DNA from: Clostridia bacterium
GTDB lineage: Bacteria; Bacillota; Clostridia; Oscillospirales; CAG-272
DNA length: 55,013 nucleotides
Assembly (NCBI GenBank): GCA_017547755.1
Contig: JAFYOX010000111.1
Location: 1 to 55,013, forward strand
Direction of reading: 5' to 3'
Shown: positions 12,326 through 54,990 of the stretch, one piece after another
Position numbering within the stretch: position 1 is the stretch's first letter
Layout: every line of letters starts with the position of its first letter
The notes under the pieces: model-generated
Databases searched by the model: none
Told to the model about the DNA's origin: nothing
The model's input: the letters and a program-made list of their open reading frames with translations, nothing else
Program-made: the position numbers and the translations under genes

Positions 12326-12380
12326 AAAAACAGCCGTTTTCTGAGGTTTTTGCCTCGGAAAACGACTGTTTTTTGCTTTT
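12326..12380 (+). terminator. Rho-independent terminator after pyk
   Basis: A stem of about 20 bp (AAAACAGCCGTTTTC with GAAAACGACTGTTTT plus a GAGG/CCTC top, slightly imperfect) is followed by a T-rich tract. It separates pyk from the phage-like block. Confidence 0.85.
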
Positions 12381-12455
12381 CACCCCCTGTTTTTGCCTGT
12401 GAACGGAGATTGGAAAAACATTGGAAAAAGTCGGGACGACAAATCGGTTCCGGTG

Positions 12456-12464
12456 TGATATAAT
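12456..12464 (+). promoter_or_regulatory. Probable promoter of the phage-like structural block
   Basis: TGaTATAAT at 12456-12464 with a weak -35 (ACGACA) 17 bases upstream. It is the only strong promoter-like site between the pyk terminator and the first phage-type gene, so it probably drives the block. A short CGAA-AG-TTCG inverted repeat lies just downstream and could be an operator, but it is too short to trust. Confidence 0.5.
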
Positions 12465-12549
12465 ACAGGCACAACGAAAGTTCGTTCGTAAAATTCCGTG
12501 CAGCGTCACGGGATCCGGCGAACGGCGGAAAGGAGAAAACGGACAGAAT

Positions 12550-12933
12550 ATGGATGAAGTGACGGAGAAGTGCGGCGGTCTTACCGCCAAACAGCGGGAC
12601 ACGGCGTACGCCATGGTGCGCGGGCAGATGCCCCTGGAGGACGTCATGAAGAAGTTCGGCATTACGGAGACGGAATTCACCGGATGGGTGATGGACGGGC
12701 GCTTTACGGAATATGCGGCATCGCTGGCACGCGGTTATGCGGAGGCGGAAGCAGCGTATGTCTGGAAGATCCTGCAGGGACTTGTGCAGAACGGCGGTGT
12801 ATCTGCGATCCGGCTGTATTTTGACCTGGTGGGCAAGAAGCCGCCGGCAAACGGGGAAATGCGTGCGGGTACGGCTGATCTGACGGAGCTGCGCGAACGC
12901 ATCTTCCGTGAGCCGGAAGGCGGGACGGCATGA
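12550..12933 (+). CDS. Terminase small subunit (probable)
   Basis: A 127-residue protein with an N-terminal helix-turn-helix-like segment (LTAKQRDTAYAMVRGQMPLEDVMKKFGITETEFTGW) and a C-terminal helix (SAIRLYFDLVGKKPP). This is the usual shape of terminase small subunits, which recognise DNA and load the large subunit. Identity rests mainly on position: it directly precedes and overlaps the large terminase by four bases. The ATG at 12550 lies downstream of AAAGGAG at a rather long spacing, so the start is slightly uncertain. Confidence 0.7.
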   Translation: MDEVTEKCGGLTAKQRDTAYAMVRGQMPLEDVMKKFGITETEFTGWVMDGRFTEYAASLARGYAEAEAAYVWKILQGLVQNGGVSAIRLYFDLVGKKPPANGEMRAGTADLTELRERIFREPEGGTA

Positions 12934-14264
12934 CGGTACAGGGGAACGGCTATATTTTCGGTGAAAAGCACTGCGAGTATATGCGGCGCGCCTTCAGCTC
13001 GACGATCAATGTGGCGGAAGGCGCGGTGCGTGCCGGAAAAACGGTCGACAATGTGTTCGTATTTGCGGCACTGCTCGAGGATTCGCCGGATACGTTCCAT
13101 CTTGCGACCGGATCGACCCTCGGCAACGCCAAACTCAATCTCGGCGACTGCAACGGTCTCGGACTGGAGCATATTTTCCGCGGACGGTCGAAATGGACGC
13201 GCTACCGCGACAACGAAGCGCTGTGCGTGAAGACGAAACGCGGGGAACGGATCATTATTTTCGCGGGCGGAAAGAATTCCGATTCGTACAAGAAGATCCG
13301 CGGGAATTCCTACGGAATGTGGATCGCGACGGAGATCAATCTCCATGACGATGCGATCATTCAGGAGGCGTTCAACCGCCAGCTTGCCGCCGGGGACCGC
13401 CGTGTTTTCTGGGATCTCAATCCCGGCGCGCCGAACGCGCCCATCTATCGCGATTATCTCGACAAGTACGAGGCGATGCGGCAGTCCGGAGAGGTACGGG
13501 AAAACTTCTACAATTATGCGCATTTCACGATTTTTGACAATCCGGTCATCACAAAGGAGAGGTTCGGCGAGATTGCGGCACAGTACGACAGATCGTCGGT
13601 GTGGTACCGGAGAGACATTCTCGGACAGAGATGCGCGGCGGAAGGACTGATCTACCGGAAATTTGCCGACGATCCGGAGGCGTTTACGGTCGACAGCGTG
13701 CAGGTCAGGGACATCCGGTTTGTGAATGTCGGGATCGACTTCGGCGGAAACCGGTCGAAAACGACGTTTGCGGCCAGTGCGTTTCTCGCCGGCGGTGCCG
13801 GTGAAGCGGACGGAACGATCGTTGTGCTCCGCGACCATGCGGTCGGCGGAGGAAAGGGTGAGATCGACGCGGAGAGGATCAACCGGGAATGCCGGGAGTT
13901 TCTCGAAGGTCTGCGCCGGGATTATCCCGGCGTGTACATCCGGTATATCTTTGCGGACAGCGAGGCGCAGTATCTGATCAACGGGCTCCGGCGGTATCTT
14001 GCGGCGCACGGAGAGACGGTGAAGGTACAGGACGCCGCGAAACGACGCATTGCCGACCGCATTGCGTTTGTGAATCACCGGATGGCGGAAGGAAAATTCC
14101 GGATCATGCGGGAATGCACGCGTCTGCGTGACGGTCTCTGCGGCGCGGCATGGGATCCGGATGCGGCGGATGACCGCCGTCTGGACAATTTTACGTCCGA
14201 TATCGATATCCTTGATGCGATGGAATATTCGATCGAGCGGTATATGAACCGGACAAATTCGTAA
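12930..14264 (+). CDS. Phage terminase large subunit
   Basis: A 444-residue packaging motor of PBSX/Terminase_3 type. The ATPase part has a Walker A-like loop EGAVRAGKT (Lys37) and a Walker B region ending in MWIATEIN (about 130-137). The RNase H-like nuclease has acidic residues in VNVGIDFGGNRSKTTF (about 268), YIFADSEAQYL and FTSDIDILDAMEYSI. The motor translocates DNA into an empty capsid and the nuclease cuts it. All motor and nuclease motifs appear intact, so the gene is probably functional. Whether packaging is sequence-specific or headful cannot be read here. Confidence 0.93.
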   Translation: MTVQGNGYIFGEKHCEYMRRAFSSTINVAEGAVRAGKTVDNVFVFAALLEDSPDTFHLATGSTLGNAKLNLGDCNGLGLEHIFRGRSKWTRYRDNEALCVKTKRGERIIIFAGGKNSDSYKKIRGNSYGMWIATEINLHDDAIIQEAFNRQLAAGDRRVFWDLNPGAPNAPIYRDYLDKYEAMRQSGEVRENFYNYAHFTIFDNPVITKERFGEIAAQYDRSSVWYRRDILGQRCAAEGLIYRKFADDPEAFTVDSVQVRDIRFVNVGIDFGGNRSKTTFAASAFLAGGAGEADGTIVVLRDHAVGGGKGEIDAERINRECREFLEGLRRDYPGVYIRYIFADSEAQYLINGLRRYLAAHGETVKVQDAAKRRIADRIAFVNHRMAEGKFRIMRECTRLRDGLCGAAWDPDAADDRRLDNFTSDIDILDAMEYSIERYMNRTNS

Positions 14265-14279
14265 AGGAGAAGTCAATGT

Positions 14280-15638
14280 ATGATTGACAGTGAGGTTCTG
14301 GCGTATCTCGGGGAACGCGGTGCGGCGGCACAGTCGCCGATGTATGCGTACATCCGGGAATGGGAGATGTGGTGGCGCGGCAGGAACCGTGCGTTCCACG
14401 AATATCTCGAAAACAATGCCATGGGACATCCGGTGCGCCGCGAGATGTTCCGCATGAATATGGCGAAGAAGATCTGCGAGGACTGGGCGGCGGTTCTGCT
14501 GAACGACCGTACCGGCATTTCCGTTGCGGATGAAGCCGGGGAGGCGTTCGTGAAAAAGGTCTTTGCGGACAGCGGATTCCTCCGGCAGGCAAACCGTCTT
14601 GTGGAAAAGGCATTTGCGGTCGGTACGGGTGCGGCGATCCTGCGCATCGCGGACTGCCCGGCGGAAAACGGCGTGCTTCTGGCGGATGAGAGGACGCGTC
14701 TGTCGTTCGAGTTTGTCGATGCGGCGCATATCATTCCTCTGTCGGTGCACAACGGGCAGATCACGGAAGCGGCGTTTGTCTCCGAAGGTGTGGAACGCGG
14801 CAGGGAGTATGTCTATCTGGAGACGCATACCCTCGAGGACGGCGGCTACTGCATCCGCAACGTGTTCTTCGACCGTGAAGACGGGATGCTGAAGGAACGT
14901 GACGGCGGAAAGTATGCGCAGGTGATCCGTACGCGTTCGCCGGTGCCGTTTTTCGCGGTCCTGACGCCGAACATCGTCAACCACATGGACGAGATGTCCG
15001 GGATGGGGATGTCGGTGTTTGCGGATGCGCTCGACTGTCTGCGCGGAGTGGATCTGGCGTTCAACAATTTCTGCCGCGACATCAAGCTCGGCGGCAAGAA
15101 GGTGTTCATCAACCAGTCCCTCGTCCAGCGCGACGAAAACGGGAATGTGTACACGCCGGATGACGTGGCACAGCAGCTGTTCGTGACCATCGGGGACACG
15201 GATATTGCGGAGCATCCGATGATCGCGGAGCACAATCCGGAGCTCCGTACCGCCGACAACGCCGAGGCCGTGCAGAATCAGCTCGATTATCTGTCGTTCC
15301 GCTGCGGGCTCGGTACGCATCATTACACCTTCGGCGGAGTTGACGGACGTACCCGTCTGACGGCGACGCAGTACATGGGAGAACGGCAGGACATGATGCA
15401 GAATGCCGTGAAGCATCAGAAGAATGTGGAAATGTTCCTCTGCGGCATGGTGCGTGCGCTTCTGTGGTGTGCGGCGGAGGTATGGCGTCTTCCTGTGGAT
15501 GCGGATGCGGCGGTCACGGTGACGTTTGACGACTCGTTCTTCACGGATACGGAAAGTCAGCGTTCCCGCGACCTGGACGAAGTAAAGGCGGGGATCCTGA
15601 CCGCCGAAGAATACAGAAGAAAGTGGATTGAGGTGTGA
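14280..15638 (+). CDS. Phage portal protein, SPP1 gp6-like
   Basis: A 452-residue protein starting MIDSEVLAYLGERGAAAQSPMYAYIREWEMWWRG. The NMAKKICEDWAAVLLND stretch and the late FRCGLGTHHYTFGGVDGRTRLTATQYMGER region are typical of SPP1 gp6/A118-type portals, which form the dodecameric DNA entry ring and connect head to tail. An AAGGAG site precedes it. A minute reading frame (ATG TAT GAT TGA, 14276-14287) overlaps the portal start in another frame and lies closer to the ribosome site; it may be chance or a coupling device. Confidence 0.88.
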   Translation: MIDSEVLAYLGERGAAAQSPMYAYIREWEMWWRGRNRAFHEYLENNAMGHPVRREMFRMNMAKKICEDWAAVLLNDRTGISVADEAGEAFVKKVFADSGFLRQANRLVEKAFAVGTGAAILRIADCPAENGVLLADERTRLSFEFVDAAHIIPLSVHNGQITEAAFVSEGVERGREYVYLETHTLEDGGYCIRNVFFDREDGMLKERDGGKYAQVIRTRSPVPFFAVLTPNIVNHMDEMSGMGMSVFADALDCLRGVDLAFNNFCRDIKLGGKKVFINQSLVQRDENGNVYTPDDVAQQLFVTIGDTDIAEHPMIAEHNPELRTADNAEAVQNQLDYLSFRCGLGTHHYTFGGVDGRTRLTATQYMGERQDMMQNAVKHQKNVEMFLCGMVRALLWCAAEVWRLPVDADAAVTVTFDDSFFTDTESQRSRDLDEVKAGILTAEEYRRKWIEV

Positions 15639-15639
15639 A

Positions 15640-16092
15640 ATGCCCCGTATTTCGGATATTTTCGGCAGTGAGAAGCTGTCGTACGAGGAATTTGTGAAAA
15701 AGGCGGCGGAAGCGGGCGGTGAGTTCGGCGACGTCGCGGAAATGCGAAAGGCGCATACGGCGGAAATGAACCGTCTGCGTGTGACCGGCGCGGTGGAGCG
15801 TGAGGCGATGCGTGCCGGAGCGAAGAACAGCGGTCTGCTCATGCGTGTGATCGACATGGGCGGCATCACCGTGGACGAGTCCGGCGTTCACGGGATCGTG
15901 GAACAGATCGGGAAGCTGAGAGAGAGCGATCCGTATCTGTTCGCTGAAAAGGAAGCGCCGGTACCGCCGGCAAAGGAACCCGTGACCCTTCCCGCGGTGA
16001 CGGTCAGCACCGGTGCGCCGCACGGCAGAGAGACGGTGGATCCCGATCTCCTGAGCGACGCGGATTATTATGCGGGAAGAATGAAGCAGTGA
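15640..16092 (+). CDS. Capsid scaffold protein (probable)
   Basis: A 150-residue, charged, largely helical protein between portal and coat genes, the usual place for scaffold. The central region (EFGDVAEMRKAHTAEMNRLRVTGAVEREAMRAGAKN) is predicted helical and a Pro-rich hinge (PVPPAKEP) precedes the C-terminus. Coat proteins of the P22 kind need a separate scaffold and no maturation protease, and no protease gene is present. GAGGTG lies six bases before the ATG at 15640. Assignment is from context and composition. Confidence 0.65.
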   Translation: MPRISDIFGSEKLSYEEFVKKAAEAGGEFGDVAEMRKAHTAEMNRLRVTGAVEREAMRAGAKNSGLLMRVIDMGGITVDESGVHGIVEQIGKLRESDPYLFAEKEAPVPPAKEPVTLPAVTVSTGAPHGRETVDPDLLSDADYYAGRMKQ

Positions 16093-16130
16093 AATTCGGT
16101 AAATTTCTCTGTCTGACGTTTTTGAAAAAA

Positions 16131-16145
16131 GGTTTGAAACAAACC
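16131..16145. repeat. Short hairpin ahead of the coat protein gene
   Basis: GGTTTG-AAA-CAAACC forms a 6-bp stem, preceded by GTTTTTGAAAAAAGG, which resembles the core of the intergenic palindrome family. It may be a decayed copy of that repeat or a processing hairpin that stabilises the coat mRNA. Confidence 0.4.
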
Positions 16146-16167
16146 GGAAAAAGAAAGGATTTTTACA

Positions 16168-17262
16168 ATGGCTAAACTTGATTTTACCGTAAAGCAGATC
16201 GCGCGTGAGGCTCTTCCGCGTCTGATCGACAATCTGGTGTTCCCGAATCTGGTCTACAAGGAGACCGTTCCGGGGAATGCCGCAAAGAAGGGCGACGTAG
16301 TCTCCGTGCGCTGTCCCGTCCGTCTGGAGGCGAATGATTTTGACGCTTCCGCCGGTATTTCCGCGCAGAACCTCGACAACGACACCATTGACGTCAAGCT
16401 CGACCACATTGCGACCGTGGATCTTCAGCTCGGCGCGATCGAAGCGGCATGTGATTTTGAATCCGTGACCCGTCAGTTCATCGAACCCGCGGCGGCGGCT
16501 CTCGCCGAAAAGATCAACGCGGAAGGCCTTGCGCTCTACCGCGACATCCCCTATATCGCCGGGGAAGCCGGTGCGGTTCCCGACGGTCTCGACGACATCG
16601 CGCAGGCATCGTATATGCTCGATATGAACAAGGTTCCGTTCGGCAGCCGATGCGCGGTGTGGAATCCGCTGGCTACCTCGAAGCTCAAGCAGGTCCCCGC
16701 GATCGTGAATGCGGAAAAGTGCGGCTCCACCAATGCGCTCCGCACCGGTGCGATCGGCCGTGTGTTCGGCATTGACAACTATATGTCCCAGGCGGTCGCG
16801 GATCATGCACCGGCATACACCGGTACCCTGACCCTTGCCGCCGATGTGACCGACGCGGAGGAAGTGACCTTCACGGCGTCCGCGGCGTCCGGAAAGCTCC
16901 AGCACGGCGACCTGCTGAAGATCGGCGGCAAGACCTACACCGTGAAGGCGGATGCGGCGGTGACGGGTTCTTCCGTGAGAGTGGAGGTTTACCCGAAGAT
17001 GACGGCGGACAAGGGTGCGGCAGCCGAACTTGTTCCGGCGCACGCGGCAAATCTTGTGTTCCATCCGAACGCGTTCGCGTTCATTTCCCGTCCGCTGCAG
17101 GCGCCTGCCGGGGTTGAATCCTATGTGACCAGCTACAACGGCATTTCCCTGCGTGTTGTCCGCGGCTACGATATCCGCTACAAGCGTGAGATCCTGTCCA
17201 TGGACGTGCTGTACACCTTCCAGACCCTGTATCCGGAACTCGCGGTACGTTATCTCGGCTGA
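16168..17262 (+). CDS. Major capsid (coat) protein, P22 gp5-like
   Basis: A 364-residue protein with the P22 coat-family outline: N-terminal LDFTVKQIAREALPRLIDNLVFPNLVYKE, a VSVRCPVRLEANDF strand, an HIATVDLQLGAIE strand with the spine helix FIEPAAAALAEKINAEGLALY, and later FGIDNYMSQAV. A Thr/Ala-rich insertion (about 215-300) could be the inserted domain. C-terminal strands SYVTSYNGISLRVVRGYDI and ILSMDVLYTFQTLYPELAVRYLG complete the HK97 fold. It has an AAAGGA ribosome site and is expected to be the most expressed gene of the block. Confidence 0.85.
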   Translation: MAKLDFTVKQIAREALPRLIDNLVFPNLVYKETVPGNAAKKGDVVSVRCPVRLEANDFDASAGISAQNLDNDTIDVKLDHIATVDLQLGAIEAACDFESVTRQFIEPAAAALAEKINAEGLALYRDIPYIAGEAGAVPDGLDDIAQASYMLDMNKVPFGSRCAVWNPLATSKLKQVPAIVNAEKCGSTNALRTGAIGRVFGIDNYMSQAVADHAPAYTGTLTLAADVTDAEEVTFTASAASGKLQHGDLLKIGGKTYTVKADAAVTGSSVRVEVYPKMTADKGAAAELVPAHAANLVFHPNAFAFISRPLQAPAGVESYVTSYNGISLRVVRGYDIRYKREILSMDVLYTFQTLYPELAVRYLG

Positions 17263-17282
17263 TAAAAAAGGAGGAAACGACC

Positions 17283-17639
17283 GTGATCACTTACGAATTT
17301 TACCGTGACCGCTGCGGCGGTACGGCGGACGAGGCGGCGTTTTCCTCTGCCGCCGTTACGGCGGAAGCCGTGATCCGCGCTCTGCTGTATCCGGCACTGC
17401 CGGAGGATCTCACGGAATCTCAGACGGATGTCTTCCTGCGCGCGGTCTGCGCGCAGGCGGATCACAGTCTTGCGGGTGACGGAACGGGTACGGGCAGGAT
17501 CCGCAGTGAAACGCTCGGCGACCGATCCGTGACCTATGCGGACGAGTCTGCGGGAGAAGTCCGTGTGAACGGCATTTCCGTATCGCCGCAGGCGCTTCTG
17601 CTGCTTGGGAATGCCGGATGTCTGTCCCGCTGGGTATGA
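17283..17639 (+). CDS. Head-tail connector (head completion) protein
   Basis: A 118-residue protein starting with GTG at 17283, nine bases after AAAAGGAGG. The helical N-terminal half (DEAAFSSAAVTAEAVIRALLYP, ESQTDVFLRAVCAQADHS) and the SETLGDRSVTY motif followed by a C-terminal helix (SPQALLLLGNAGCLSRW) match gp6-like connector proteins that bind under the portal. It is the first gene after the coat gene, where this protein is expected. Confidence 0.7.
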   Translation: MITYEFYRDRCGGTADEAAFSSAAVTAEAVIRALLYPALPEDLTESQTDVFLRAVCAQADHSLAGDGTGTGRIRSETLGDRSVTYADESAGEVRVNGISVSPQALLLLGNAGCLSRWV

Positions 17640-17649
17640 GGAGGTACGG

Positions 17650-17994
17650 ATGGGAAATTTTTTGAATGAGGCGGTCGTTCTGCTGAAATACCGTCCGGAT
17701 CCTGCGGCGCTTACGCCGTCGTATGACCGCTATCCGCTGGAAAACGTGATGGTGCGTGAAATTTTTGCGGCGGATGCCGAAGGGACTTCCGGAGACGGCG
17801 CGGTGGTGTATTTCCTGGAAAAGGGAAGCGTCTGCCGCGATCCGCACGGCAGGACGGTCGGTTTTCCGCGTCCGGCGAAAGGGGATCTCTGCATCCTTCA
17901 TGCCGGGACGCCGGAAGAAGTGACAATGCGTGTGGCGGAAGCCGGATATTTCGGCGGCAGTCCGCTGGCGCATGTCCGCATGAAACTGAAGTAA
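17650..17994 (+). CDS. Minor capsid/head-closure protein (probable)
   Basis: A 114-residue protein (MGNFLNEAVVLLKYRPDPAA, later GAVVYFLEKGSVCRDPHGRTVGFPRPAKGDLCILHAGTPEE) of mainly beta character. In A118/TP901-like modules the second small gene after the coat gene encodes a minor capsid or stopper protein, which fits here. A GAGGAGG site lies before the ATG at 17650. No catalytic motif is seen. Confidence 0.6.
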   Translation: MGNFLNEAVVLLKYRPDPAALTPSYDRYPLENVMVREIFAADAEGTSGDGAVVYFLEKGSVCRDPHGRTVGFPRPAKGDLCILHAGTPEEVTMRVAEAGYFGGSPLAHVRMKLK

Positions 17995-18006
17995 GGGGGA
18001 CGGAAG

Positions 18007-18363
18007 ATGGTCAATGTGACGGTTTCGGCCTCCGGGATCGGGGATATCTTTCTGACGCGGCTTTCCGGAGCTTCGAGACGGCTGCAGCAGGCGGTGATCG
18101 CTTCCTGCGAACCGTTTGTTCCGTACCGGACGGGGGAACTCTGCCGTTCTGCGGTGTCAGAAGGCGAAGGTCCTTCCGGCAGGATCGTGTATACCGCGCC
18201 GCACGCGTCGCGATGCTACTACGCGGAGCGTCCGTTTTCGAAAAAAGTGCATCCGCAGGCGTGCGCGCACTGGTTTGAGGCGGCAAAAGCAGCCGATCTT
18301 GCGGCGTGGACCGATGCGGTGGCGGCGGCACTGACGGACCGCCGTCCGGAAAGGGGAGGATAA
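18007..18363 (+). CDS. Minor capsid protein, HK97 gp10/Minor_capsid_2-like
   Basis: A 118-residue protein with the family's typical elements: PFVPYRTGELCRSAV in the first half, then IVYTAPHASRCYYAERPFSKK and HWFEAAKAADLAAW. This pattern is found in head-tail joining proteins and neck components of siphophages. It lies between the stopper and the tail terminator candidates. An AAGGGGG-type site precedes the start. Confidence 0.72.
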   Translation: MVNVTVSASGIGDIFLTRLSGASRRLQQAVIASCEPFVPYRTGELCRSAVSEGEGPSGRIVYTAPHASRCYYAERPFSKKVHPQACAHWFEAAKAADLAAWTDAVAAALTDRRPERGG

Positions 18364-18366
18364 CCT

Positions 18367-18780
18367 ATGGAAAACGAATTCTACACGATGGAGCAGATCC
18401 TCTGCACCTATCTCAGCGGATGCGGTACGGTCTTTCTGCCGGAGACATGGCGGGACGGTGCGGTCTGCGTTTCCCTGACCGGCGGTCAGGAGGTATACCG
18501 GACGTATGTGGACGGTTCCTGTCTGGCAGGGCTTCCGTTTGATGTGCGCGTACGCTGTCCGAAATGTGCGGACAATGCGGCGGATAAGATGGAAGCGGCG
18601 GCGTTTTTCGCGGGGCTTGCGGACTATATCCGGCAGACGCCGATGCCGGTGGAAGGATGGCGCGTTCTGCCGTCCTCCGGAAGACCGTTCGGCGGCGGAT
18701 ATGCGAAATCCGCCGTCTGGGACGACGGGACGGAAGAATACCGTGCCGGGTATGTGCTGGAATTTTATATGAAAAAATAA
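18367..18780 (+). CDS. Tail terminator-like protein (Minor_capsid_3 position)
   Basis: A 137-residue protein: an N-terminal helix (MEQILCTYLSGC), CVSLTGGQEVYRTYVDGSCLAGLPFDVRVRCP, a central helix (AAAFFAGLADYIRQ) and the C-terminal strand YRAGYVLEFYMKK. This alpha/beta arrangement and the place just before the tube gene fit the tail terminator/minor capsid 3 group, which caps the tail tube and joins it to the head. GGAGG lies before the ATG. Confidence 0.65.
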   Translation: MENEFYTMEQILCTYLSGCGTVFLPETWRDGAVCVSLTGGQEVYRTYVDGSCLAGLPFDVRVRCPKCADNAADKMEAAAFFAGLADYIRQTPMPVEGWRVLPSSGRPFGGGYAKSAVWDDGTEEYRAGYVLEFYMKK

Positions 18781-18793
18781 GAAAGGATGCAAT

Positions 18794-19273
18794 ATGGCAA
18801 TTGTCAACAGAGCGGAGAGAAAACATTATCTGAACACCGGTACCGACTCCGCGCCGGTGTGGAGTCCGATCGGGGAAGGCTTTACCGAGTTCATGGAGTC
18901 GAAGAATGCCGTGAGCTACGGGAGACGCTACATCCATGAGGCGACCAAGCGCACCGATGTGACCGGCTATGCGCCGGTGATCGATTACGAATTTGAAGTT
19001 TACCGCGGCAATGCGGTGATCGAGGTCCTGCGTGAGATCACCGACCGTGAAATGTGCGGGGATAAGGCGCAGGTGGATCTGCTCACCGTCGATATGTTCG
19101 ACGAAACGGCGACGGGCGGCGTATACCGTGCCGTCCGCAGACGCTATTCCGTGATCCCCGACGAATGCGGTGAAGGAACGGATGCGCTCTGCTACACCGG
19201 GACGATGAAGGCGGTCGGCGACATCATTCCCGGGACGTACGTGGCGGTCAGCGGCATTTTCAATGCGGACTGA
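18794..19273 (+). CDS. Major tail tube protein
   Basis: A 159-residue protein. It starts MAIVNRAERKHYLNTGTDSAPVWSPIGEGFTEFMESKN, a common opening for siphophage tube proteins, and continues with beta strands (DYEFEVYRGNAVIEVLREITD, GVYRAVRRRYSVIPDECG) ending in GTYVAVSGIFNAD. It would polymerise into the tail tube around the tape measure. An AAAGGATG site precedes it. No sheath gene is present, so the tail should be non-contractile. Confidence 0.8.
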   Translation: MAIVNRAERKHYLNTGTDSAPVWSPIGEGFTEFMESKNAVSYGRRYIHEATKRTDVTGYAPVIDYEFEVYRGNAVIEVLREITDREMCGDKAQVDLLTVDMFDETATGGVYRAVRRRYSVIPDECGEGTDALCYTGTMKAVGDIIPGTYVAVSGIFNAD

Positions 19274-19297
19274 TAAGGCGGGGAAAGGAGGATTCCG

Positions 19298-19669
19298 ATG
19301 GAACATACATGGTATTACGGCGGGAAGACGTACCCGTTTGACATCAGCGAAAGCGAGAGCATGGCGAGAATGTGCAGTGGTCTGAATACCCTGCGCGAGG
19401 AGATCGGTGCTCTGGGCGGCGACAGCGCGAGCGACAATCTGCGCGGTCAGTGCCTCATCATCCGCCGCTTTTTCGACACCGTTCTCGGCGAGGGAACGGG
19501 CGAAGCGGTCTGCGGTGAGGCGTTCAGTGCGGACGCACATACGACGGCATACATGGAGTTTATCCTGTTTGTCAGCGCGCAGGTGAGCGCGTTCCGCGAA
19601 AAGGTCGCGGCCGTCGAAGAAAAGTATATGAACCGTGCGGCGGAACTGACGCAGGCGTATGGCGTATAA
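19298..19669 (+). CDS. Tail assembly chaperone-like protein
   Basis: A 123-residue helical protein (EHTWYYGGKTYPFDISESESMARMCSGLNTLREE, then CLIIRRFFDTVLGEG and FREKVAAVEEKYMNRAAELTQAYG). It lies between tube and Gp15-like genes, where tail assembly chaperones are encoded. It overlaps the next gene by 11 bases in a different frame. Many siphophages make a chaperone fusion by ribosomal slippage at this place, but I see no clear slippery heptamer. Confidence 0.6.
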   Translation: MEHTWYYGGKTYPFDISESESMARMCSGLNTLREEIGALGGDSASDNLRGQCLIIRRFFDTVLGEGTGEAVCGEAFSADAHTTAYMEFILFVSAQVSAFREKVAAVEEKYMNRAAELTQAYGV

Positions 19670-20264
19670 TCTGCTGACCGACCGGCTGCCGGAGTGCATT
19701 GCGGTCGGCGGCCGGGAATATCCGGTGCATACGGATTTCCGGCGGTGGATCCTTGTGGTCGAACTGTTCGCGGAAAACCTTATGGATGTGAGGTCGGCGG
19801 CAGACTGTGCGGTGCGGATCGTTTTCCGTGAGGAAAATCCGCTGGACGAGGTCCGCGGAAAGTCTGCGGACGAGGCGGTACGGGTGTACCGTGATACCGT
19901 CCGCGGGATCACGGAATTTGCGCTCTGTGGAAGGACGGCCGGTTTCCGTACGGAGGATCGTCCCGGAAAGACGCTGTCCGCGGAGCCGGTATTCGATTTT
20001 ACGGCGGACGCCGGACGGATCTATGCGGCATTTCTGCAGGTCTACGGAATGGATCTGTGCGGGACGGCGGGGAATCTGCACTTCTGGAAGTTCATGGAGC
20101 TTCTGCGGAATCTGCCCGCCGAAACGGAGTTCATGCGGGTGGTGAGCCTCCGCAGAACGGATACGGCGAAGATCGAAAATGACGATCTCCGCCGTCGGAT
20201 CCGCCGTGCCAAGGCAAGCGTGCGGATCCGCAGAGAAGAAGGAAAGGAGAAAAATTATGGCTGA
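19659..20264 (+). CDS. Bacteriophage Gp15-family protein
   Basis: A 201-residue protein with the Gp15 opening: MAYNLLTDRLPECIAVGGREYPVHTDFRRWILVVELF. Later come VFDFTADAGRIYAAFLQVYGMDL and LHFWKFMELLRNLPAETEFMRVVSLRRTD, with a basic C-terminal tail (RRIRRAKASVRIRREEGKEK). Gp15 proteins lie directly before the tape measure in many Firmicutes siphophages and are thought to act in tail assembly. It overlaps both neighbours by a few bases, suggesting translational coupling. Confidence 0.82.
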   Translation: MAYNLLTDRLPECIAVGGREYPVHTDFRRWILVVELFAENLMDVRSAADCAVRIVFREENPLDEVRGKSADEAVRVYRDTVRGITEFALCGRTAGFRTEDRPGKTLSAEPVFDFTADAGRIYAAFLQVYGMDLCGTAGNLHFWKFMELLRNLPAETEFMRVVSLRRTDTAKIENDDLRRRIRRAKASVRIRREEGKEKNYG

Positions 20265-21042
20265 TGGATCGGTAACGATCGGCGTCATGCTGGACACGGC
20301 GGCGTTTGCGGCGTCCGTGGCGTCGGTGCAGACGCAGATCGGCAGCATGGCGGCGGATATCAATCAGTCGCTGAACGGAGCTTTTTCCGGCGCGTCGGTG
20401 GATGCTTCGCTGACCGCGGCGATTGCCAATCTGGCGGGCAGCATTGCGGCATCCTCGGCGGAGGTGGTGCAGGCGATGGCAGCTCTTGCGTCATCGGCAT
20501 CGGATGCGTTTGCCGCAGGCGGATGGACGGAAGCCGGCATGACCTCGGCAGGACTGCTTGCCGGCGGCATTACGGCGGGCGGCGGTGCGGTGGCTTCGGC
20601 GGTTCAGGCGATCTCGCATACGGCGTCCGCGGCATTTGACAACAGTTCGTGGTACGGCATCGGGAACAACATGATGTCCGGGATTGCTGCCGGAATTTAC
20701 GCTGCCGGAGCGGAAGTGACGGCGGCGATCCGCGCGGTTGCGGCGGAAGCGGAAGAAGCCGTGAAGGCGTATTACGATATCCGTTCTCCGTCCGGGCTCA
20801 TGCGCGATGAGGTCGGCGTGATGATCTCGCGCGGGATCGCGGAAGGGATCCTGTCCGGTTCGGAATTTGTACGCAGTGCGATGGACAGCGTCGGACGCGG
20901 GGCGGATCGGGTGCGTATGACGGAAGGTACTTCCGGCGGACGCAGTGTGACCCAGAATATCTATCTGCGCGACAGCGATGTGTCGCCGTACCGGACGGCA
21001 CGACGGATCCGCAGGGAAAGCGAGGCAATTTTCAGAAACTGA
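20257..21042 (+). CDS. Very short tape measure protein
   Basis: A 261-residue, Ala/Gly/Ser-rich helical protein at the tape measure position. The C-terminal segment YDIRSPSGLMRDEVGVMISRGIAEGI is a standard ending of tape measure proteins, and the RSVTQNIYLRD tail is also common there. The N-terminal region (ITIGVMLDTAAFAASVASVQTQIGS in outline) resembles the usual start. The long coiled and lytic middle part of normal tape measures (600 to over 1500 residues) is missing. With about 1.5 angstrom of tail per residue the tail would be at most about 40 nm. The frame is intact. AAAGGAG lies before the ATG. Confidence 0.78.
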   Translation: MADGSVTIGVMLDTAAFAASVASVQTQIGSMAADINQSLNGAFSGASVDASLTAAIANLAGSIAASSAEVVQAMAALASSASDAFAAGGWTEAGMTSAGLLAGGITAGGGAVASAVQAISHTASAAFDNSSWYGIGNNMMSGIAAGIYAAGAEVTAAIRAVAAEAEEAVKAYYDIRSPSGLMRDEVGVMISRGIAEGILSGSEFVRSAMDSVGRGADRVRMTEGTSGGRSVTQNIYLRDSDVSPYRTARRIRRESEAIFRN

Positions 21043-21043
21043 T

Positions 21044-21907
21044 ATGGAGAAAAACTACAGGATCCGGATCCTATCCGGAGAACATACGCTGGAGCTGTCT
21101 CCGGATTCCCCGTGCCGTCTTCTTGCCGGAGGACTGTCCGGCTTTGACTGCACCGGTCTGGACGTTTCCGTGCGTCCGTATGCGTCCCGTCACGGCGGTT
21201 ATCCCGAACGGAGACGGTTTGCGGAGAGGGAGCTCGGGCTGGTATTTGAAATTGATGCGGATGAGGAAGAAACGGAAGTGCTCCGCCGTCGCATTGTGAC
21301 GATGATGAATCCGGCACGGACCTGCGAAATTGACGCGGAGATCTACGGCGTGCGCCGTAAGATTTCGGTGATCCCGTGCGGCGAAGCCGTTTTTGTCCGC
21401 GAGACTATGCACGACCGGCCGGAAGTATCGCTGGAATTTGTTGCGCCGGATGTGTTTTTTAGCGCGGCGGAATCGTCGGAAATCGTATTCCGCGATCCGG
21501 TGCCGCTTCTGACGTCACCGCTGTCGTTTTTTGCGGGCGCCGGCATGACGACGGGGATTTTCCGTACGACGGATACCACGCGCCTTTTCAACGAAGGCGA
21601 TGCGGCGTGCGGGATCGTTGCGGAAATTACCGCGGACGGCGGAGACATCGTGCATCCGGGGATTTCCTGCGGTGAGGACTTTGTGATCTGTCCCGTGACG
21701 CTGTCCGACGGGGACACGCTCGTGATCGATACCCGTGACCGCAGAAAAAATATTTATCTGAACGGGGAGCAGTATTTTTCCTTTGACCGGCGCAGTACGT
21801 TTTTTGCTCTGCCGCCGGGAGAAAATGTGGTCTCCGTCCTGTGTGACGACGGAACAGAATATGTCCGTGCGAAGCTGACGTATGTTCCGCTGTATTTCGG
21901 GATCTGA
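21044..21907 (+). CDS. Distal tail (Dit-like) protein
   Basis: A 287-residue protein starting one base after the tape measure stop. The N-terminal half (FDCTGLDVSVRPYASRHGGYPERRRF, LGLVFEIDADEEETEVLRRRIVTMMNPA) and the middle EVSLEFVAPDVFF match siphophage distal tail proteins (Sipho_tail family). The C-terminal half has ITADGGDIVHPG, LVIDTRDRRKNIYLNGEQYF and ends in TYVPLYFGI, a galectin-like part seen in Dit. It forms the hub ring at the tail tip. Confidence 0.82.
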   Translation: MEKNYRIRILSGEHTLELSPDSPCRLLAGGLSGFDCTGLDVSVRPYASRHGGYPERRRFAERELGLVFEIDADEEETEVLRRRIVTMMNPARTCEIDAEIYGVRRKISVIPCGEAVFVRETMHDRPEVSLEFVAPDVFFSAAESSEIVFRDPVPLLTSPLSFFAGAGMTTGIFRTTDTTRLFNEGDAACGIVAEITADGGDIVHPGISCGEDFVICPVTLSDGDTLVIDTRDRRKNIYLNGEQYFSFDRRSTFFALPPGENVVSVLCDDGTEYVRAKLTYVPLYFGI

Positions 21908-21920
21908 CGGAGGACAGCGT

Positions 21921-22991
21921 ATGGATTTGTATTTTCTGGATGCGGATTTTCTGCCGCTGACCGGCCCGAAGGACGGCTGTTCGTCGATCGTCTGGTCGGA
22001 ACGATATTTTGAAAACGGATCGTTCACCCTCCATTTCCCGAAGGAAATGCTTCCGGAGGTGTACGATGCCGTATATGTCCGTACCGGCGTGGAAAACGGC
22101 CGCATCAAGTGCGGCAGGATCACGTACGTGCTGACGGACGACGAAGAGGAAGCGGGCGGATGCGAGATGGGAGGGAAGATGCTTGAATCCCTGCTTGACG
22201 ATCGTGTCCTTGCAGGAAAGGGATGCAGCAGCGGTCCGCTGACGCAGGCGGTGCTCTCTGCGGTGGAAGCGAATCTGCGTTCCTGCGGCGTGGAGATCGG
22301 GGAAAGTGAGTGGATTGACGATGCGGTCAGCCTGACATACGATTGGGATACGATGTCGGAATGGCTGTATGCCGTGCTGCGCCCGTTCGGGGCGTCCTAC
22401 CGGATCGAGCTTGATCCCGGCCGGAATGTGCCGGTGTTCCGGATCGTCCGCGGGATCGACCGCAGTTCCGGCGTGGGACAGAATCTGTCGGAGAACTACA
22501 ATCTCGGGCAGGCAGTGTTTTCCTCTTCGTTCGGGAACATTGTGTCCATCCGCTTTGAGCGCGATACGGCGGATGTAAAAAATGTCGTCTACGTGGAAGG
22601 TTCGGACGGAACGGTGATCGAGGTGGACACCAGCGGCGGTTCCCCGAAACGGGAGATGTACAAGGCGGTGACGGACGTCAAGTCGTCCGATTTCGCCGAT
22701 ACGGCGGCGTATACGGCGGCACTCCGTCAGCGCGGCGCGGAGATTCTGGCGAATTACACCGAGATCTATCATATTTCCGCCGAGACGGACGCGGGAGTTT
22801 CGCTGGTGTACGGTACGGATTACGCGCTCGGTGACATCTGCGACGTTGCGGACGATGCGCTCGGGCTGTCGTTCGGGATGCGTCTGACGGCGGTGGACGA
22901 TGTGACGGAGTACGGTACCCGTACGCTGTATCCTTCCTTCGGCGAGGAAGTCCGTCAGGTCCGTCGGCTGATCGGCGGGAAGCGGTATTGA
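21921..22991 (+). CDS. Tail hub protein, ReqiPepy6 Gp37-like
   Basis: A 356-residue protein starting MDLYFLDADFLPLTGPKDGCSSIVWSERYFENGSFTLHFP. The order DAVYVRTGVENGRIKCGRITYV, GKMLESLLDDRVL, a VLRPFGASYRIELDP segment and FSSSFGNIVSIRFERDTADVKNVVYVEG matches Gp37-like tail proteins that build the baseplate hub below Dit. No peptidase or lysozyme domain is attached, so there is no visible wall-cutting activity in the tail tip. GGAGG lies before the ATG at 21921. Confidence 0.82.
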   Translation: MDLYFLDADFLPLTGPKDGCSSIVWSERYFENGSFTLHFPKEMLPEVYDAVYVRTGVENGRIKCGRITYVLTDDEEEAGGCEMGGKMLESLLDDRVLAGKGCSSGPLTQAVLSAVEANLRSCGVEIGESEWIDDAVSLTYDWDTMSEWLYAVLRPFGASYRIELDPGRNVPVFRIVRGIDRSSGVGQNLSENYNLGQAVFSSSFGNIVSIRFERDTADVKNVVYVEGSDGTVIEVDTSGGSPKREMYKAVTDVKSSDFADTAAYTAALRQRGAEILANYTEIYHISAETDAGVSLVYGTDYALGDICDVADDALGLSFGMRLTAVDDVTEYGTRTLYPSFGEEVRQVRRLIGGKRY

Positions 22992-23010
22992 GAACCGGGC
23001 GGAAAAGGAT

Positions 23011-23057
23011 GCGGGGGAACCCTTTTCCAAAAGGAGAGTTCCCTCTGGAAACTTTAT
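23011..23057 (+). repeat. Copy of the host intergenic palindrome inside the phage-like block
   Basis: GGGAAC-CC-TTTT pairs with AAAA-GG-(AGA bulge)-GTTCCC, and a GGAAACTTTAT flank follows, as in the nusA-rnpM element (GGAACTTTATC at 5469-5479). It fills the only sizeable gap between hub and fibre genes and may attenuate transcription. Confidence 0.55.
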
Positions 23058-23075
23058 TTTCAATAAGGAGAAACT

Positions 23076-23801
23076 ATGGCTGATATTTCGATTCCCGTAT
23101 TTGGCGGGATGTTTGATTCGACGATGGTGGTCGATACGGTGAACGGATTTCCGCGCGGGGACAAGGCGGTGGATGCGTCGTTTTTCGCAAAGATGATCTC
23201 GTCTTTTTACTCCGACGGGGTTCTGTCCGGCGGCGATTATGCGCAGAACGGCTTTCGCATTGTGTCGGCAGGCGGTCTTGCGGTTACGGTATCGGCGGGG
23301 ATCGCGTGGATCCGCGGCTACATGGCATGGATGCAGACGGAGGAGAGTTTTTCGCTCCGTGCCGGACACACGTACACGGTGGTTCTTCGTCTGAACACCG
23401 CAACGGGGGATTTCCATCTGATCGCGTCGGAAGATGCGGTCGGCGAACCGGCGGATACCGAACTGATGCGTGATCTGGTTCTGGCGGAGATCACGCTTCC
23501 CGCCGGATGTACGGCAGTGACGGAGAGTATGATCCTCGATACCCGCGGGGATTCCGCGAAGTGCGGATTTGTGACCTGCAGCGTGGAGGCTCTGCAGACG
23601 GTTCCGTTTGCGGTGAATGCGGGCGCGGTCGGCGGTGTCCCGGAAGGGGTACTGATGCGGAAGACGGGCGGCATTATGCTCGGCAGTCTCACGGCGGCAC
23701 CGGAGACGACCGGGGTTTCCGTGGTGCGCAATATTTCCTACGGCACCGTGCTTCCCGATGTATTGAGCGAAGGGGAAATTTTTATTCTTCTTTCGGAGTA
23801 A
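23076..23801 (+). CDS. Putative baseplate/tail fibre protein
   Basis: A 241-residue protein with a region typical of the N-terminal part of phage baseplate and fibre proteins: DGVLSGGDYAQNGFRIVSAGGLAVTVSAGIAWIRGYMAW, then a beta-rich stretch HTYTVVLRLNTATGDFHLIASED and RDLVLAEITLPAGCTAVTESMILDTRGD. The C-terminal part is short and lacks collagen-like or carbohydrate-binding repeats. It probably attaches to the hub and may contribute to receptor contact. Confidence 0.65.
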   Translation: MADISIPVFGGMFDSTMVVDTVNGFPRGDKAVDASFFAKMISSFYSDGVLSGGDYAQNGFRIVSAGGLAVTVSAGIAWIRGYMAWMQTEESFSLRAGHTYTVVLRLNTATGDFHLIASEDAVGEPADTELMRDLVLAEITLPAGCTAVTESMILDTRGDSAKCGFVTCSVEALQTVPFAVNAGAVGGVPEGVLMRKTGGIMLGSLTAAPETTGVSVVRNISYGTVLPDVLSEGEIFILLSE

Positions 23802-23820
23802 CGGAAAAGGGAGGAAAGGT

Positions 23821-24906
23821 ATGTCGATTTTATTCCGAAATACCGCGGTTCTTACGATCGGCGGTATGGAGACACGTCTGACGGTTTATTTTCAGGACGG
23901 ACTTCTCCGCGTGGAGCTGGCACCGTACAGCAGCAATCCGTCGGAAGCGTACACCGGTACGCTGAGTGCGGCGGTGACCTACGGCGGTGTGTCAAAGCAG
24001 CTTGCGGCATCTCCGTTCAAAAAGGCTGTTTCGGCGGTTTTTTCGGCGGACAAAACACAGAAGAGCATCACGCTGTCATCCCCGTCCGCAGTCGTTTATG
24101 ACGGGATGGCTTTCGCACCGCTTACGGTTTCCTGGAACGGAGACGGGACGCTTGCCGTACCGTCCGCGCGGATTTCCTATGCGTCGGGACTGCTGATCGG
24201 ATCCCTTCTGCAGCTTCGCTGGGAGGCAGATGGAGTTCCGGAAGGGTATGCTGTGCGTACACTCGGGATCTGGATGTACCGCGCACCGAAGGCGCAGATC
24301 GAGCCGAAGTACACGCGAAGCTGTCTGCTGGACCGGAAGAGTGCGAATTTTTCGCTGGAACATATGATTGACGATCTGGAGGAGAAAAATGTTCTGTTTT
24401 ACCGGATTGCGCTCGGACTCTATCCTGCGGGATCCGCGGATTTTGCCGGCAGAGACGGCTACGAACTGTATTTCGAGATTGATTCTCCGGCATATGTCTG
24501 TTCCGGACAGCAGGTGTATACGCTTGCACCGTGTAATTTCCGCTGCAGCGGAGTCCGCCGGAACCGTGTTGTGAATCTGACCTGGGAGACACTTCCTACG
24601 GCTTTGCATACCGAAGGCTTCCAGATGGACGTTACCTATGACGGAAGCACGTGGTACAGACTTTTCCTGGACAAATGTCCGTCTATGAGCTATTCCTTTG
24701 CGATTCCGCAGGGGCAGAAGAAGGCGGCGTTCCGTCTTTGCGCGTATTCCAGCCGAAGCAAATATGAGACTTCCGGAGACATATATACGCCGTGGATAAC
24801 GATCGGAAACTCCAATGTATACGTCGGATATCACGGAAGCGCGGTTCCGGCGGCAGAGATTCATGTCGGTTCTGCGGCGGCATCCGCCGCGCTGAGTGTC
24901 GGCTGA
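23821..24906 (+). CDS. Putative receptor-binding or tail tip protein, unassigned
   Basis: A 361-residue beta-rich protein that I do not recognise. The first 130 residues (LTIGGMETRLTVYFQDGLLRVELAPY, GTLSAAVTYGGVSKQLA) suggest a beta-sandwich. The C-terminal third has fibronectin-like segments (RNRVVNLTWETLPTALHTEGFQMDVTYDGSTWYRLFL, AAFRLCAYSSRSKYETSG). As the last gene of the tail module it is in the usual position for a receptor-binding protein. It ends at a perfect hairpin with no lysis genes after it. Confidence 0.5.
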   Translation: MSILFRNTAVLTIGGMETRLTVYFQDGLLRVELAPYSSNPSEAYTGTLSAAVTYGGVSKQLAASPFKKAVSAVFSADKTQKSITLSSPSAVVYDGMAFAPLTVSWNGDGTLAVPSARISYASGLLIGSLLQLRWEADGVPEGYAVRTLGIWMYRAPKAQIEPKYTRSCLLDRKSANFSLEHMIDDLEEKNVLFYRIALGLYPAGSADFAGRDGYELYFEIDSPAYVCSGQQVYTLAPCNFRCSGVRRNRVVNLTWETLPTALHTEGFQMDVTYDGSTWYRLFLDKCPSMSYSFAIPQGQKKAAFRLCAYSSRSKYETSGDIYTPWITIGNSNVYVGYHGSAVPAAEIHVGSAAASAALSVG

Positions 24907-24926
24907 CGGAAATATTTCCGTCAGCC
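24901..24926 (+). terminator. Hairpin ending the phage-like block
   Basis: GGCTGACGGAAA and its exact complement form a 12-bp stem with a two-base loop that overlaps the last stop codon. The T-tract on the plus strand is poor, so it may act as a stabilising end or with the neighbouring hairpins. Confidence 0.55.
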
Positions 24927-24928
24927 GG

Positions 24929-25045
24929 AAATAAATAAAACCGCGGACTGTTTCGGCGGTCCGCGGCATATATTTGGAACAGAGAGAAAGAACGGCGGAA
25001 GCACCGGAACGGGATCGTGAAAATCCTGACCGGTGCTTCTGCCGT
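24929..25045 (-). terminator. Terminator region of the TRAP transporter operon
   Basis: Two stems lie downstream of the TRAP permease. ACGGCGGAAGCACCGG (24992-25007) pairs with 25030-25045 at 15 of 16 positions. CCGCGGAC (24941-24948) pairs perfectly with GTCCGCGG (24959-24966) and is followed on the minus strand by TTTTATTTATTT. The second has the form of a true Rho-independent terminator. Confidence 0.75.
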
Positions 25046-54917: not shown

Positions 54918-54990
54918 AGCGGATTACGGGGCTCGAACCCGCCACCTCAACCTTGGCAAGGTTGCGCTCTACCAAATGAGCTAAATCCGC
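54918..54990 (-). tRNA. tRNA-Gly, anticodon GCC
   Basis: A complete 73-nt cloverleaf on the minus strand. The acceptor GCGGATT pairs with AATCCGC, the D arm is GCTC/GAGC, the anticodon stem CAACC/GGTTG encloses loop TTGCCAA (anticodon GCC), and the T arm GCGGG/CCCGT has the TTCGAGC loop. CCA is not encoded and must be added after transcription. The promoter lies beyond the window. Confidence 0.97.

Follow-up and report, generated by a model that had tools for sequence, protein, structure and literature searches.

The gene transfer agent (GTA) of Rhodobacter, RcGTA, is encoded by a siphovirus-like gene set of about 15 kb with a shortened tape measure, has its regulator and lysis genes outside the cluster, and is controlled by CtrA/GafA. 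PBSX of Bacillus subtilis is a fixed, DNA-damage-induced locus of phage origin, larger, with a contractile tail and lysis genes of its own. Few GTAs are known in Gram-positive bacteria (PMC12946183), and by the count in its own description FpGTA of Faecalibacterium (Borodovich et al., Nat Commun, January 2026; PMC12946183) is the second one, PBSX being the first; its operon I was present in 12/12 Faecalibacterium genomes examined by its authors, and the protein accessions include RCH50849.1 for the coat and RCH50851.1 for the portal. Here we describe a locus at positions 12550-24906 (+ strand) of a stretch of 55,013 nucleotides, hereafter the window (contig JAFYOX010000111.1 of assembly GCA_017547755.1), from a ruminant-gut Clostridia bacterium whose relatives have the same inherited phage gene set. 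Its gene content and comparison with relatives make it probable that these genes form the structural operon of a GTA that has been domesticated and is inherited vertically, a candidate put forward by the initial annotation of this DNA and now supported by a host-congruent phylogeny, a low ratio of nonsynonymous to synonymous substitution rates (dN/dS) and its presence in three genera and a second family.

The distances between the core proteins of the element (TerL, portal and coat) and those between the RpoB sequences of the hosts were strongly correlated over 40 genomes (r=0.926), with 0/2000 permutations reaching as high a value. This set was drawn from the 48 genomes with a core protein, leaving out the distant G254 and G431 and the genomes without a usable rpoB (G005, G010, G015, G023, G308 and G597); RpoB was the one host gene used. 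The correlation held within genera, with r of 0.905 in the window genus (g1), 0.783 and 0.751 in its sister genera g24 and g53, and 0.975 in g100. The element tree and the RpoB tree have 30/37 splits in common, against a mean of 0.28 and a maximum of 3 with shuffled labels (500 shuffles). A phylogeny matching that of the host had been named in advance as a mark of domestication, and this is what the two measures gave. Non-carriers mostly cluster in subclades of the host tree and we read their absences as losses, some of which may come from incomplete genomes, for example G007, which is 70% complete and in which the regulator described below is still present.

All 17 genes of the operon are under purifying selection. 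Compared with G009, the nearest relative, dN/dS ranged from 0.058 for the coat to 0.387 for the terminal gene, within the low values expected beforehand of a domesticated element, and eight further species pairs gave 0.037-0.60; no ratio was obtained for a 42-residue TerL fragment, which lacks synonymous changes. The synonymous divergence (dS) of the cluster from G009 was 0.49-1.14 (mean 0.79) and that of six flanking host genes was 0.28-0.89 (mean 0.59), and this overlap suggests that the age of the operon is close to that of the species split, or that the operon evolves slightly faster at synonymous sites. The TerL positions that we take to be the Walker A motif, the Walker B glutamate and the acidic residues of the nuclease are near-invariant across 42 homologues, in agreement with the intact frames and the ATPase and nuclease motifs first noticed in the window.

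Measured against the definition of GTAs by Kogay et al. 2022 (PMC9662315), whose further features are packaging of mostly random host DNA, a genome of the agent that exceeds the capacity of the head, and delivery of the packaged DNA into other cells, the locus shows the three features that can be read from sequence. It encodes proteins similar to those of Caudoviricetes for a tailed-phage-like particle, and these are inherited vertically and co-diversify with the host. The genome of the element is endogenised, over several loci, the operon lying between host genes and the regulator on another contig of the window genome, and a holin-peptidase trio being found on other contigs in G011, G015, G016 and G023.

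The coat gene was found, single and open, in 16/25 genomes of g1, 7/12 of g24 (a weak 30% match in G230 was excluded), 7/9 of g53 and 16/20 of a second family, f10. A family-wide coat search (395 genomes, 71 genera, E≤0.001) matched 31 genomes, with the 27 strong matches all in g1, g24 and g53 and the rest made up of one match of 31% in g9 and three marginal ones. An order-wide search (394 genomes) matched 26, 16 of them strongly in f10, the others being the window genome, one g24 genome, one match of 33% in another family and seven marginal ones. By name, the closest coat is that of the goat-cecum Clostridia bacterium RGIG1778 (95%). Core gene order was conserved in the f1 loci read, some of which are without the tail-shaft genes; in f10 the locus is shorter and keeps these head genes, but no tape measure was called, and in the two f10 loci that were scanned a protein of 350-360 residues weakly matches a phage tail family.

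Distant coats of the P22 type were also seen in other gene settings, in L023 (50%), G254 (L055, 31%) and G431 (L072, 33%). Two viral contigs of IMG/VR, L024 and L025, contain the cluster (coat 53%), and L025 additionally has an upstream open reading frame (ORF) in common with the host locus L051. Both contigs therefore look like host loci filed as viruses, which suggests that some viral-database entries are host-owned loci.

The source genome of the window (G000, the window being its contig C108) comprises 3.05 Mb in 117 contigs and is 75% complete. Gene calls together with Pfam and PHROGs profile scans placed 17 co-directional open genes in the locus, none of them broken, with some starts taken from a codon-usage caller; the intact co-directional cluster of the initial annotation thus stands, and its count of fifteen genes does not. 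The complete gene set for a siphovirus-like particle that had been proposed was likewise recovered, comprising terminase, portal, scaffold, coat, connectors, tube, tape measure, Dit, hub and tip.

The head and packaging genes, all on the + strand like the features that follow, begin with the small terminase TerS (12550..12933), which has a helix-turn-helix (HTH)-like domain (PF13022), and the large terminase TerL (12930..14264), in which the ATPase and nuclease residues are conserved and which had no match to a Pfam family, its name resting on PHROGs profiles (E 2e-23). They are followed by the portal (14280..15638; PF05133, phrog_533), the scaffold (15640..16092; PF06810) and the P22-like major coat protein (16168..17262; PF11651, E 9e-43). 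The connector region comprises a head-tail adaptor (17283..17639; phrog_541), the protein g7 (17650..17994), assigned to the connectors by gene position, with no family match in the Pfam and PHROGs scans and an uncertain start at 17605 or 17650, a minor capsid protein or connector of the Minor_capsid_2 family (18007..18363; PF11114, phrog_556), and g9 (18367..18780), putatively in the tail-terminator position and fused to the tube in some relatives.

The product of 18794..19273 belongs to phrog_3099, a family without a named function, and is probably the tail tube according to gene order and a structure model of moderate confidence. In this AlphaFold2 model (mean predicted local distance difference test, pLDDT, 67) the top PDB matches were phage tail tubes with E 1e-3 or weaker, and no PDB match was found at E 0.001 or better. 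Downstream lie a DUF6673/phrog_4450 gene in the putative position of the tail assembly chaperone (19298..19669), a Gp15 family gene (19659..20264; PF06854) and a short tape measure of 261 residues (20257..21042), named by profile match, whose top matches fall on the C-terminal parts of longer tape-measure profiles. Dit, the distal tail protein (21044..21907; profile match), a Gp37-like tail hub (21921..22991; PF14594, with a possible alternative start at 21882) and a tip or baseplate-like virion protein (23076..23801; profile match) precede the last gene (23821..24906). The product of this fast-evolving terminal gene (52% identity to its nearest relative, dN/dS 0.39) may be a receptor-binding tip protein; it had no family match in the Pfam and PHROGs scans, and its structure model (mean pLDDT 48) was too poor for use.

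The locus is limited upstream by a terminator-like stem-loop behind pyk (12335..12364), followed by a putative operon promoter (12436..12464) with a weak -35 (ACGACA) within a conserved GGAYGACA, 17 bp and TATAAT, and a second terminator-like stem-loop (24941..24966), found by the sequence scan, closes the operon. The scan yielded 6 promoter-like sites against 5.5 in shuffled sequence and 13 terminator-like sites against 11.8, and the sites at the edges were accepted because of their position and, for the promoter, its conservation. With pyk on one side and TRAP-transporter genes on the other, the flanks and limits are those originally described. Of 29 repeat families, the 20 that were shown include no att-like pair joining one edge to the other, in line with the earlier remark that direct repeats are missing there, and the sole tRNA of the window is at 54918, with none near the cluster.

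Comparison with relatives points to a graded reduction of the tail, with calls that rest on a simple gene caller. The tape measure has 276-330 residues in five g53 loci (it is unclear in G242 and G209), 236-262 in twelve g1 species and 113-142 in G003, G012, G334 and G194 (by position only in G012), whereas G005, G006 and five species of g24 yielded no call of either a tape measure or Gp15. By the rule of about 1.5 Å per residue, the 261 residues of the window tape measure would predict a tail of about 39 nm in the window species, with stubs predicted for the forms that lack a tape measure. The g9 gene is fused in one frame with the tube in G005 and G152, and weakly in G308, and one half of the fusion was matched in each of G047 and G322. 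A fused terminator-tube could make one ring only, and particles with this fusion should therefore be nearly tailless, as predicted from their genes. As a side observation, in L028, L029, L041, L042 and L044-L046 the stretch from coat to Dit is without a called Gp15 or tape measure, and g9 and tube are fused in some of them.

In g24 a small ArpU-like regulator gene (phrog_36 and phrog_248, one copy scanned) lies upstream of TerS, and in most loci a zinc-ribbon-like ORF also precedes TerS. A profile search for this regulator in g1 matched 15/16 carriers of the cluster and 2/9 non-carriers (Fisher p 5e-4, relatedness ignored), the match in G010 having one stop. In the window genome the regulator gene is unlinked to the cluster, on contig C100 (L185:9237-9584), where it has a boxed promoter and is preceded by a zinc-ribbon-like ORF. 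All operon promoters of g24 (7/7) match TTGACA-GAACNNNNGTTY-N5-TATAAT exactly, with a LexA-type box inside, and 11/17 g1 regulator genes have one or two such boxes (≤1 mismatch) near a strong promoter; random 300-bp windows contained an exact box in 1.3% of cases and a box with ≤1 mismatch in 11.4%. The lexA gene was searched in 20 genomes and 17 loci were read, leaving out G012, G016 and G294. All genomes read from g1 and g24 (13/13) had a box ahead of lexA, at a distance of 78-178 bp and differing from GAACNNNNGTTC at one position; neither of the two g53 loci read showed the motif, and of two f10 loci read one was without a box and the other had a weak site 202 bp upstream. The g1 operon promoter carries GGAYGACA with a weak -35 in 13/14 loci (≤1 mismatch; 11 exact), a motif that at the same threshold occurred in 58/20000 random 150-bp windows of the same loci, and we read it as a putative activator-dependent promoter. 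The boxes at the regulator promoters and at the sister operon promoters would predict SOS induction, and we infer that LexA and the ArpU-like regulator may act at these promoters.

Lysis genes were sought beside the cluster and elsewhere. No holin or endolysin was called beside the window cluster, as the initial annotation had stated, and this part of its claim holds for the window; in the sister genus g24 and in part of f10, lysis genes do adjoin the cluster. In g24 an amidase-type ORF is downstream of the cluster in 7/7 loci, 4 of which also have a called holin (L041 and L047 were scanned for families), and in g147 an endolysin-like ORF and a small ORF weakly matching a holin lie downstream of the cluster in 5/5 loci (scanned in L060), where NlpC/P60 fell just below the Pfam cut-off. 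The unlinked trio of G011, G015, G016 and G023 (L131-L134) consists of a fibre-like ORF, a PF05105 holin and a peptidase presumably of the M23 type, judged by its sequence.

Taken together, these features would fit the following scheme. DNA damage would relieve LexA from the boxes at the regulator promoter, and from those at the operon promoter as well in some sister species; the ArpU-like regulator would then activate the operon through the conserved GGAYGACA/TATAAT promoter, capsids would assemble and the terminase would load them with pieces of host DNA. The short non-contractile tail with Dit, hub and tip could bind kin cells, and lysis in the window genome would be provided by genes encoded elsewhere.

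The main rival explanation is a killing particle of the PBSX kind, domesticated and SOS-induced, which would package host DNA without injecting it and kill competitors. The predicted SOS-type control suits such a particle, PBSX being likewise fixed and induced by DNA damage, and the fast evolution of the terminal gene would suit selection on the target range of a killer. This rival is also discussed for FpGTA in its description (PMC12946183). However, the genes for coat, portal and TerL rank with the most conserved ones, and the catalytic residues of TerL are kept in its homologues, which argues that DNA-filled heads are under strong selection. Moreover, several lineages shrink or lose the tail shaft and yet keep the head and packaging genes, the opposite of what a tail-based killer would be expected to do, and we consider this explanation unlikely.

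The position of the cluster on the chromosome bears on a second rival. Among the loci read the pyk-TRAP site is common only to G009, so that pyk-TRAP was ruled out as the ancestral site. Presence of the cluster in relatives at the same place, which had been proposed as a check, was therefore borne out for presence, over three genera and a second family, and not for the place. Sister species do have sites in common with one another. In g100, for example, 6/9 loci are at one site, with two common upstream genes and ackA downstream (family-scanned in one locus, by similarity in the others), two are at different sites and the last is on a contig too short for a decision. In G001, G005, G010 and G016 the cluster is downstream of a gene of 219-256 residues and a PHP gene, and in G010 and G016 an EamA transporter was additionally matched upstream. 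In the window genome homologues of these (a gene of 243 residues, PHP and EamA) adjoin the regulator on contig C100, without the cluster. Since genes that adjoin the cluster in relatives lie here beside the regulator, the structural operon was probably relocated in the window lineage and the regulator left behind.

A search for tyrosine integrases (PF00589), which did not extend to serine recombinases, had none of its listed matches on the 46 contigs with the cluster, which agrees with the absence of an integrase noted at the outset, and 42/46 cluster genomes have a PF00589 integrase on another contig. Thus, by these matches, the edge repeats and the tRNA, the integrase and att sites that would mark a prophage or satellite were not seen beside the cluster. 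A decaying or satellite prophage without arms and with short-lived inheritance, or a capsid-forming satellite mobilised by a helper phage, would explain the patchy occurrence among the genera of the family, where strong matches were confined to three of the 71 sampled, and the variation of the site between species. Against it stand the co-divergence over two families, the purifying selection seen in every gene, the single open copy in each carrier genome, the integrase result and the g100 loci that share the ackA site, and we regard it as very improbable.

Slightly less probable still is a head-tail particle that serves the host in some other way, for instance by protecting DNA, exporting it or hindering phage infection; domestication is what the data show and function is deduced from anatomy, which leaves room for it, but terminase, portal, Dit, hub and tip are all kept and would presumably not be needed together for such a role. 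An active phage lineage was ruled out by the RpoB co-divergence, the tree match and purifying selection, and a tailocin, against which terminase and coat had already been cited, by the retention and good conservation of terminase, portal and coat.

Several observations weigh against the GTA reading. Seven splits are peculiar to the element tree, and two of them, g24 as a single clade and a group within g53, contradict RpoB with high support (99 and 100); presence and absence need at least 5 changes on the host tree including non-carriers; the chromosomal site varies within the genus; and the mean dS of the element somewhat exceeds that of the flanking genes. TerS keeps its HTH-like domain, with PF13022 matched in 23/39 scanned (of 41 candidates, the two shortest, L062 and L071, were excluded). 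As to control, no clear LexA-type box was found at the window operon promoter, the two boxes flanking the regulator promoter of the window genome have one mismatch each, and 6/17 regulator genes are without a box near the promoter: none was found at the regulator promoters of G011, G015, G016 and G018, the only site in G007 is weak and not close to the promoter, and the contig of G003 is not long enough. No PF05105 holin was found in the window genome, at its 75% completeness, other holin and endolysin types not having been searched. Patchy presence at different loci and lysis genes a short distance away in sister strains had been named in advance as findings that would speak against a GTA; the site changes and the lysis genes of sister lineages touch on both, and we judge the vertical phylogeny to outweigh them.

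With the GTA reading preferred, a wider proposal can be made, tentatively and with some lean towards doubt: an ancient SOS-controlled GTA lineage of gut Clostridia could predate the split of the two families and have had its tail dismantled stepwise, from siphovirus-like to podovirus-like (the tape measure going from 330 to 113 residues and then lost, the terminator fused to the tube), possibly being the stock of FpGTA-type agents. If the locus encodes a GTA, kept as it is through two families of gut Clostridia, the exchange of genes in rumen and hindgut would become directly testable, and the regulator, the predicted SOS switch and the graded tail reductions would make the reason for GTA retention testable as well.

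Deposited phages are distant from the cluster: the best matches listed were 38% for the coat, 41% for the portal and 49% for TerL over full length, and a partial match to TerL reached 61% but covered 56%. Clostridioides phage Hain-Saunders-2022a (CP103806, Leicestervirus) has the same order of TerS, TerL, portal, scaffold, coat, connectors, tube, Gp15, tape measure and tail proteins, with identities to the cluster proteins of 49% for TerL, 29% for the tube and 27% for Gp15. It differs in being a whole phage, with recombinases, replication genes and one more minor capsid gene, which separates portal from scaffold, and in a tape measure gene of about 2.6 kb, compared with 261 residues in the window. 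Separately, in a human-faecal phage scaffold (L191, MT835795) relatives of TerL and portal stand beside a long DNA-binding-like ORF that may be a transposase.

The window locus resembles RcGTA in its siphovirus-like gene set with a shortened tape measure, in a regulator gene outside the cluster and, putatively, in lysis genes outside it too, in a different phylum, and the control predicted here is of the LexA/ArpU type, whereas that of RcGTA is CtrA/GafA. The coat here is of the P22 type (PF11651), a putative difference from RcGTA. Co-divergence with the host is shared with RcGTA and the Rhodogtaviriformidae (Kogay et al. 2022, PMC9662315). With PBSX the locus has in common a fixed phage-derived particle locus in a Gram-positive bacterium and SOS control, here a prediction. 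PBSX does not inject its DNA, according to the FpGTA paper (PMC12946183).

The closest described agent is FpGTA, by description (PMC12946183). No other GTA of gut Clostridia was found in the literature, judged by titles and the openings of abstracts, and the initial statement that none had been described for such bacteria has been overtaken by FpGTA (PMC12946183). Both come from gut Clostridia and have a compact operon of TerS, TerL, portal, scaffold and coat, with no replication genes found, and the distribution of FpGTA genes over two loci, with lysis genes in the second, can be likened to the split gene set here (PMC12946183). FpGTA particles with about 9 kb of DNA have been shown, whereas the particles of the window system are predicted from its genes, and the FpGTA TerS is without an obvious DNA-binding domain, unlike the HTH-like TerS of the window (PMC12946183). 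FpGTA is most likely podovirus-like with no identifiable tail, whereas the window locus has tube, Gp15, tape measure, Dit and hub (PMC12946183); it is thus not a tailless operon of the FpGTA kind, and forms without a tape measure occur in its relatives. Set apart by description, the window system looks like a different, siphovirus-type variant, which in some relatives has lost the tail shaft.

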